Below, piece by piece: positions 44,534-46,049 of a stretch of 64,000 bases of DNA. The translations under genes and the position numbers were made by a program. The notes under the pieces are model-generated. The model was not told the DNA's origin, searched no databases, and worked only from the letters and a program-made list of their open reading frames with translations. This DNA comes from Candidatus Hydrogenedentota bacterium (lineage in GTDB: Bacteria; Hydrogenedentota; Hydrogenedentia; Hydrogenedentales; SLHB01). The stretch lies in the NCBI GenBank assembly GCA_020848835.1, contig JADLHJ010000059.1, positions 183,854 through 247,853 on the forward strand, given 5' to 3'. The stretch's first letter is position 1. Each line of letters starts with the position of its first letter.

Positions 44534-44708
44534 GCAAACCTCAAAAAAGCAAAACGCGATGGCGTCCGATCAGGCCCCGCGCTCCGCTCCAACTCCATGC
44601 GCATCGTAGCACGGTATTGAAGATCGCGCAAGGAATATCGCCACGTTGACCGCGCGCGAGCGCTTGCGCATACTTTCGCGATGCACATCAAAGGAAAGCA
44701 GGCGCATC

Positions 44709-45098
44709 ATGCCGGGACGTGACACCGCTGTCATATCGGGGAAAGATCTGCAAGATCAGGTTGCAGCGTTGGGCCGCGAGCTTAGTCTTTCGGTAGACAC
44801 GGAAGTGGAAGTGGGACGGCGCGTGTGGGGTGCGCGGCGGAGGATCGATGTTGTACTCAAGCACAAAGAAACGCGCGTGAGTCTCGGCATCGAGTGCAAA
44901 TATCAAAGCGGGCCCGGCAGCGCGGAAGAGAAAATCCCCGCGACGATCCAAGACATTCGCGCGTGGCCGATTCGCGGTATCGTAGTGTATTGCGGCGCGG
45001 GTTTTTCTACGAACATGGAATCCTATCTTTTATCTACAGGCATGGCGGTTGAACTGTGCGATCTGAAGCCGTGGTTGGAGTTGTACTTCGGCTTATGA
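44709..45098 (+). CDS. compact PD-(D/E)XK nuclease-like protein
   Basis: 129 aa from the ATG at 44709; the track start at 44646 has no better support. The core is RRRIDVVLKHKETRVSLGIECKYQ, with D47, E62 and K64 in the spacing of the PD-(D/E)XK nuclease active site and Q66 after it. Upstream GKDLQDQVAALGRELSL resembles the first core helix, and GIVVYCGAGFSTNMESYL the last strand and helix. No separate DNA-recognition domain fits in this length. The stop overlaps the start of a Dam methylase gene (ATGA), suggesting a restriction partner or repair accessory. Cleavage activity and specificity are unproven. Confidence 0.75.
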   Translation: MPGRDTAVISGKDLQDQVAALGRELSLSVDTEVEVGRRVWGARRRIDVVLKHKETRVSLGIECKYQSGPGSAEEKIPATIQDIRAWPIRGIVVYCGAGFSTNMESYLLSTGMAVELCDLKPWLELYFGL

Positions 45099-45946
45099 CT
45101 AAACAAATGCCGCGGCGCATGTCGATGCCGCGCCCATTCTTGAAGTGGGTCGGTGGGAAGGGGCAGCTTCTAAACGAATTGCTGGCACAGGTGGATCGCG
45201 CCGGTAAATTCCATCGCTATCACGAGCCCTTCGTAGGCGGCGGCGCGTTGTTTTTCGAGCTGGTACGCACGGGGCGCATGCCCGCGGCGAAGGCATATCT
45301 TTCGGATAACAATGCAAACCTGATTGCCGTGTATCGCGGCGTGCGTGAAGATGTGGACCGGGTGATAGCGTTGTTGCTCGAACACAAACGCAAGCATTCG
45401 GAGAAACACTATTACGAAGTGCGCGCCCGGGCGCCGAAGGACGACATCGATCAGGCGGCGCGGATTATCTACCTGAACAAAACAGGCTATAACGGACTGT
45501 ATCGGGAGAACAGCCAGGGAAAGTATAACGTGCCGTTTGGACGGTATAAGAACCCGGGCATCTGCGATGAAGAAAATCTGCGTGCCGTTGCGAAAGCGCT
45601 GCAAAAGGCCAAGTTGGAAGTCAGGCATTTCGCCAAAGTGTTGGATTGTGTGGACAAGGGAGATTTTGTGTATTTCGATCCTCCTTATCATCCCGTCTCA
45701 AAGACCGCGTCGTTCACCGGCTACGACAAAGGCGGATTTAGCGAGGACTTTCAGCGGCTGCTGGCGAAAATCGCCGAAGACCTCGACGCGCGCGGCGTGC
45801 GTGTGCTGTTATCGAATTCGATGACGCCACTGGTGAAAGAACTGTATGCGAAATTTACAATCGATGAAGTATTTGCTAACCGCAATGTAAACAGCCGCGG
45901 AGACCGGCGCGGGAAAATTAGCGAAGCGTTAATTCGGAATTTTTAG
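45095..45946 (+). CDS. dam: DNA adenine methylase, Dam/DpnM type
   Basis: 283 aa from the ATG at 45095, coupled to the nuclease gene. N6-adenine methyltransferase of the alpha group: FLKWVGGKGQLL (SAM-binding start), YHEPFVGGGALFFEL, LSDNNANLIAVYRGV, YLNKTGYNGLYRENSQGKYNVPFGRYKNP, catalytic DPPY at about residues 195-198 and SNSMTP late. These are the motifs of Dam and DpnM enzymes, which methylate GATC, so GATC is the expected target. Complete. Confidence 0.93.
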   Translation: MTKQMPRRMSMPRPFLKWVGGKGQLLNELLAQVDRAGKFHRYHEPFVGGGALFFELVRTGRMPAAKAYLSDNNANLIAVYRGVREDVDRVIALLLEHKRKHSEKHYYEVRARAPKDDIDQAARIIYLNKTGYNGLYRENSQGKYNVPFGRYKNPGICDEENLRAVAKALQKAKLEVRHFAKVLDCVDKGDFVYFDPPYHPVSKTASFTGYDKGGFSEDFQRLLAKIAEDLDARGVRVLLSNSMTPLVKELYAKFTIDEVFANRNVNSRGDRRGKISEALIRNF

Positions 45947-45988: not shown

Positions 45989-46049
45989 GCACGGGCGTCC
46001 CGCCCGTGATTTTTGGATTAAAATTCAATCACGGGCGGGACGCCCGTGC
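45989..46049. repeat. long perfect inverted repeat made of nested palindromes
   Basis: Arms of 23 nt (45989-46011 and 46027-46049) are perfect reverse complements around a 15-nt loop. Each arm itself folds, CACGGGCG against CGCCCGTG. It sits between the convergent dam and glycosyltransferase genes. No T-run follows, and the structure looks like a dispersed REP-type unit more than a simple terminator, though it may also stop transcription. Confidence 0.85.

Follow-up and report, generated by a model that had tools for sequence, protein, structure and literature searches.

The closest described systems are those of the DpnII type. In the pneumococcal DpnII system, DpnM methylates duplex DNA and DpnA single-stranded DNA (PMC3573125), and LlaDCHI is likewise a GATC system (PMC4190342). 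Both combine a nuclease of Pfam family PF04556 with DpnM and DpnA methylases. MutH/Sau3AI-type proteins, for their part, are PD-(D/E)XK nucleases functionally tied to GATC methylation, and in the Vsr-Dcm pair the gene of a small repair nuclease overlaps that of a methylase, here a cytosine methylase, Vsr serving to repair deaminated m5C.

The locus described here lies in a stretch of 64,000 nucleotides from Candidatus Hydrogenedentota (hereafter the window), where a small PD-(D/E)XK nuclease gene runs into the gene of a Dam/DpnM-type methylase. It resembles DpnII and LlaDCHI in the two families of partner methylase and in the presumed GATC target, and MutH/Sau3AI-type proteins in joining a PD-(D/E)XK nuclease to GATC methylation, whereas it differs from Vsr-Dcm in that its partner is an adenine methylase. 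A sequence-only reading of the window had proposed a very compact nuclease-Dam pair, possibly a minimal restriction-modification (R-M) or repair module, whose nuclease would be either a reduced restriction enzyme relying on another factor or a GATC-linked repair or nicking protein. The comparative evidence assembled below supports the pair as such, most probably as a minimal R-M module.

The Gene Pair in the Window

The nuclease is single-copy in the window's genome, and its gene shares with that of the methylase the four-nucleotide overlap that had been noticed beforehand (Table 1), through which translation of the two is presumably coupled. The methylase belongs to the Dam family by its TIGR00571 (dam) match (E 4e-81), its closest PDB match is the DpnM structure 2dpm (E 7e-60), and the target-recognition stretch NGLYRxNS..(F/Y)NVPxGRYKNP is conserved between these two proteins. 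The inverted repeat downstream, present within the window in these two copies only, is possibly a terminator-type hairpin of the nuclease-Dam unit. Upstream, a conserved (C/G)ATACT hexamer precedes the nuclease start by ~25-40 nt in most Hydrogenedentota loci (about 44669-44674 in the window) and may be the operon's -10 element.

Table 1. Features of the nuclease-methylase locus, in window positions.
Feature	Position	Strand	Description
PD-(D/E)XK nuclease gene	44709..45098	+	129 aa; open reading frame, Pfam, alignment, AlphaFold2, PDB fold search, DpnII profile match
Dam/DpnM-type N6-adenine DNA methyltransferase gene	45095..45946	+	283 aa; predicted GATC target; 2dpm match
ATGA stop/start overlap, 4 nt	45095..45098	+	nuclease stop shares letters with the Dam ATG at 45095
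Perfect 19-bp inverted repeat CACGGGCGTCCCGCCCGTG	45990..46048	.	43 bp past the Dam stop

Family, Residues and Predicted Fold of the Nuclease

By sequence the nuclease belongs to PF20472 (PDDEXK_11), its sole significant Pfam match (E 1.7e-18, 67.2 bits against a cut-off of 23.7), and all 82 aligned members match the same family in a Pfam scan; the 129-aa protein has no credible NCBIfam match and no PADLOC match. The Pfam name gives the superfamily fold only. A literature search on PDDEXK_11/PF20472 returned no paper naming the family, and its linkage to GATC methylases is unstated in the literature searched.

The catalytic residues proposed from the sequence, D47, E62 and K64, proved to be invariant in the 82 aligned homologues, and the same triad is invariant in 23 relatives gathered without sequence patterns. 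In the alignment of 82, 29 columns never vary, including R38, W40, G41, R44, Q66, W86 and P87; since the contig-set homologues were retrieved by patterns spanning residues 59-66 and 72-79, invariance within these two stretches is partly an effect of that retrieval. Structure prediction agrees with the proposed core. An AlphaFold2 model based on the 82 homologues (pLDDT 87.3, pTM 0.82) has the predicted order H11-24, E28-35, E44-51, E58-65, H72-83, E89-95 and places the three residues on neighbouring strands of a textbook alpha-beta core; as modelled, this is the D...E-x-K arrangement on adjacent strands that defines the PD-(D/E)XK superfamily. Foldseek matched the model to MspJI, Hjc, EndoMS and Can2, PD-(D/E)XK proteins at moderate similarity only, so that no solved structure is close to the nuclease, and neither the protein nor its profile gave a credible match in sequence searches of the PDB. 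The protein is predicted to be a GATC-specific restriction endonuclease reduced to its catalytic core.

Relation to DpnII

An 82-row profile of the nuclease was compared with ten DpnII proteins by hhalign. Residues 14-121 align to the DpnII C-terminal catalytic domain, at 76% against full DpnII and at 85%, with a score of 38.8, against the C-terminus alone; 40 column-shuffled DpnII profiles scored at most 23, and no match came from the DpnII N-terminus or from Mrr. The alignment pairs D47 with D218, E62 with E231 and K64 with N233 (numbering of the L215 DpnII), so that a lysine stands where DpnII has an asparagine. MTES_1575 scores 40, equal to DpnII, but over 43 columns of a short motif region only, and because it scores as high the relation to DpnII is stated here as remote. 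Membership of PF04556 was rejected: the window nuclease has no match to that family in Pfam and lacks the N-terminal region, and only 6 of the 82 relatives match it, with a best E of 0.048. The nuclease is therefore best called core-sized, remotely DpnII-like and outside PF04556.

The expectation that DpnII nucleases are about twice as long was borne out, complete DpnII proteins having about 285-309 aa, with an N-terminal region of ~170 residues that the 129-aa protein does without. The two kinds of system differ further in that window-type systems usually have one methylase and DpnII systems two, and in that, unlike DpnII, no copies of the window-type nuclease were found on phages, plasmids or viral contigs. 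A complete Dam-DpnII-DpnA operon is present in a nuclease-free Hydrogenedentota genome (G066).

Distribution and Linkage to GATC Methylases

A relatives set of 100 genomes, comprising the Hydrogenedentota phylum and outgroups, holds a full-length nuclease in 24 genomes, the window's included, the other copies being 67-88% identical to the window's; one further genome has a broken copy. A PF20472 search of 68 genomes of the phylum recovered exactly the same 24 carriers, with one copy each, and found none in 14 named control genomes. All 24 intact nucleases in the relatives set lie directly upstream of Dam, with the ATGA overlap at 21 of the 24 junctions, an adjacency far beyond chance. Dam, scored as present at E 1e-20 or better, was matched in 47 of the 100 genomes, and none of the 53 genomes without a Dam match has the nuclease. 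The converse does not hold, the nuclease being absent or broken in 13 of the 37 genomes that keep the window's Dam subfamily.

A scan of GTDB contigs yielded 140 nuclease relatives, and the best 80 of the 140 were taken for locus analysis. These are 55-81% identical over the same length and come from about ten phyla (Hydrogenedentota, Chloroflexota, Acidobacteriota, Myxococcota, Verrucomicrobiota, Armatimonadota, KSB1, Fibrobacterota and a few others), so that the pair's range is much wider than the window alone could show. In 71 of these 80 loci Dam adjoins the nuclease or lies close by, with a gap of ~0.6-0.8 kb in two of the 71. The 71 loci scored for gene order, which have a long enough Dam and include two of the window's genus, comprise 38 nuclease-Dam, 23 Dam-nuclease and 10 convergent arrangements. 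The order of nuclease before methylase, which had been remarked upon as unusual for a toxic enzyme, is thus characteristic of Hydrogenedentota, whereas outside the phylum it is often reversed or the genes are convergent. In one Fibrobacteres locus (L080:4222-6274) Dam-like genes flank the nuclease on both sides (E 6e-40 and 2e-79), an arrangement similar to that of DpnII systems with their two methylases.

Nine of the 80 loci are without Dam. In six of them (five Verrucomicrobiota, one Acidobacteriota) a DpnA-like beta-class methylase adjoins the nuclease, with 57% local and 52% global identity to the second methylase of LlaDCHI from plasmid pSRQ700, and about 39-43% identity to CcrM-like methylases of Sinorhizobium and Azospirillum; its best single PDB match is CcrM. 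Because the DpnII system itself has both DpnM and DpnA as its GATC methylases, the methylase partner varies while the inferred GATC target stays constant. In the nuclease tree a locus with Dam (L077) groups with two that have the DpnA-like partner (L064 and L069; support 99/92), and its nesting there therefore indicates a methylase swap, the target by inference still being GATC. Two other Dam-less loci (L054, L086) are at contig ends. In the last, L070:5001-5387 of genome G100, the nuclease homologue lies near gluQ/panB-like and penicillin-acylase-like genes without an adjacent methylase, and no match to a Dam or DpnA-like methylase was found in this 2.2-Mb assembly, which may be incomplete; the nuclease is either solitary or has its methylase on a missing contig.

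An endonuclease gene that adjoins its cognate methylase is the mark of a type II R-M system, and such adjacency was found throughout the relatives set, in most of the wider loci with Dam and in the six with a DpnA-like partner. As to the question whether homologues always neighbour Dam, the majority do, but not these six or L070. With the six counted in, a neighbouring methylase is nearly universal, and the catalytic residues never vary, so that neither of the grounds on which the sequence-only reading was to be refuted applies. No third gene common to the loci was found, so nothing as yet supports the idea that the nuclease depends on another factor.

Constraint, Decay and Stability of the Locus

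In 99% of 2,485 locus pairs the two nucleases are more alike than the two Dam proteins (mean identity 61% versus 50%), in a sample whose ranking by nuclease similarity favours higher nuclease identity; the relatives set, obtained by whole-genome search, agrees that the nuclease is the more conserved. Between G005 and G021, dN is 0.028 and dS 0.46 for the nuclease, against 0.134 and 0.90 for Dam, and the nuclease is under strong purifying selection. In two DpnII systems that were compared, by contrast, the restriction enzyme is about equal to DpnM in conservation (39% and 41%).

Hydrogenedentota genomes often share a single chromosomal place for the pair or for Dam by itself: in six genomes (G001, G005, G008, G037, G038, G055) the pair is found close to argH, as a rule together with a response regulator, and the Dam of two Dam-only genomes (G003, G023) is at the same argH locus. 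Decayed copies also occur. In G042 (L180:3034-3159) a 264-nt in-frame deletion has removed nuclease codons 25-112; 41 codons remain, still joined through the ATGA to an intact Dam. In G016 the nuclease is truncated, with another gene between it and Dam. Strong constraint, decayed copies and Dam-only loci together therefore indicate a nuclease that is strongly selected where present, yet dispensable and outlived by Dam. In the nuclease tree most phyla form blocks, with some mixing.

Restriction-Modification as the Probable Role, and Its Alternatives

Gene linkage, the predicted fold, invariance of the catalytic residues, exchange of the methylase partner, nuclease decay with Dam retained and strong purifying selection are best accommodated by a type II (P-like) GATC R-M system consisting of the two genes, with a catalytic-core-only endonuclease, a reading that we regard as probable; the profile match to the DpnII C-terminal domain and the complete DpnII operon of G066 also speak for it. 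In the host chromosome Dam would methylate the GATC adenines of both strands, and the 129-aa protein would be the cognate endonuclease, a PD-(D/E)XK core without DpnII's N-terminal region. It would presumably act as a dimer of identical subunits, each recognising one half of the palindrome by means of the conserved basic loop 35-46 (VGRRxWGAxRRID), and D47, E62 and K64 would cut both strands at unmethylated GATC in incoming DNA, m6A presumably blocking cleavage and defence being the likely benefit. The nuclease decay in G042 and G016 may be likened to that of dying R-M systems.

Several observations count against R-M. A nuclease more conserved than its methylase is unusual for such a system, and the fixed argH locus in Hydrogenedentota is unlike a mobile one; the lack of phage, plasmid or viral copies, a GATC frequency no lower in nuclease-bearing genomes than in others, the L070 nuclease without a methylase match, and the remoteness of the DpnII match, equalled in score by MTES_1575, point the same way. 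It is conceivable, if rather doubtful, that in many uncultured phyla the GATC nuclease has become a lasting companion of Dam on the chromosome and serves genome maintenance rather than phage defence, for example in the surveillance or processing of unmethylated GATC.

Repair is an unlikely alternative: a MutH-like nickase would nick the unmethylated strand at hemimethylated GATC, the parental strand being marked by Dam or DpnA-like methylation. Long residence at one locus, stronger constraint on the nuclease than on Dam and two kinds of GATC methylase partner would all suit such a role, as would the occurrence of MutS in 18 and MutL in 14 of the 20 carriers searched. However, MutL keeps DQHAxxER and CPHGRP in 10 of 10 nuclease-bearing Hydrogenedentota examined; of 13 other carriers at least 11 keep both motifs and a further one comes close. 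A MutH substitute is thus unneeded, which makes the role less likely, and MutH-type repair, which goes with a MutL lacking the endonuclease motif, is not supported on this ground. In addition, one genome of 99% completeness (G027) combines the nuclease with MutS yet gives no MutL_C match, no mut gene is among the pair's immediate neighbours in the window, and the losses in 13 of 37 genomes noted above sit poorly with a repair function. The Pfam scan gave no MutH/Sau3AI-type family matches among the aligned relatives. Of the two roles that the sequence-only reading had left side by side, restriction therefore fits better than repair, since the MutL motif is kept, the nuclease can be lost with Dam kept, and Dam is replaceable by a DpnA-like methylase.

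We consider it distinctly improbable that the nuclease is an addiction module or cell-cycle guard rather than a defence enzyme, cutting GATC to punish the loss of Dam or unfinished methylation and so stabilising an epigenetic Dam. The stable locus, high constraint and lack of mobile-element copies would agree with this, but G003 and G023 still have Dam at that locus without the nuclease, and a guard of this kind would be biochemically identical to a restriction enzyme. There is little likelihood of a nuclease with another sequence specificity or none, co-transcribed with Dam by happenstance: the GATC target is itself deduced, and remote similarity extends to several PD-(D/E)XK families, but the linkage recurs across phyla in all three gene arrangements, with methylase partners from two unrelated GATC families. 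That the nuclease is a methylation-dependent (type IV-like) enzyme cutting Gm6ATC is scarcely credible, although the fold is common to modification-dependent enzymes such as MspJI, as it would cut its own Dam-methylated chromosome and the nuclease is found with methylases, not replacing them.

If active, the nuclease would be unusually compact for a restriction enzyme with sequence specificity, and the unstudied family PF20472 would gain a function. The unchanged partnership with GATC methylases across about ten phyla would make target specificity predictable from genomes alone, and a nuclease more constrained than its methylase, whose loss Dam survives at a fixed locus, offers a natural series on the origins of orphan Dam from restriction systems.

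Tetranucleotide Frequencies

GATC frequency is alike in nuclease-bearing, Dam-only and Dam-free genomes, with no extra depletion in the nuclease-bearing ones, and is therefore uninformative as a sign of restriction pressure. A Lake Biwa metaepigenome paper (PMC6329791) offers no GATC case that could be used for a carrier of the nuclease. Other tetranucleotides are scarce in individual genomes. In G032 (L262, L284-L286) the observed/expected ratio is 0.02 for AGCT and 0.06 for CTAG, the scarcity of AGCT suggesting avoidance under an AGCT-specific restriction system, and ATAT at 0.11 of expectation in G033 (L290) and GGCC at 0.31 in G004 (L263-L266) are possible restriction-avoidance signals.
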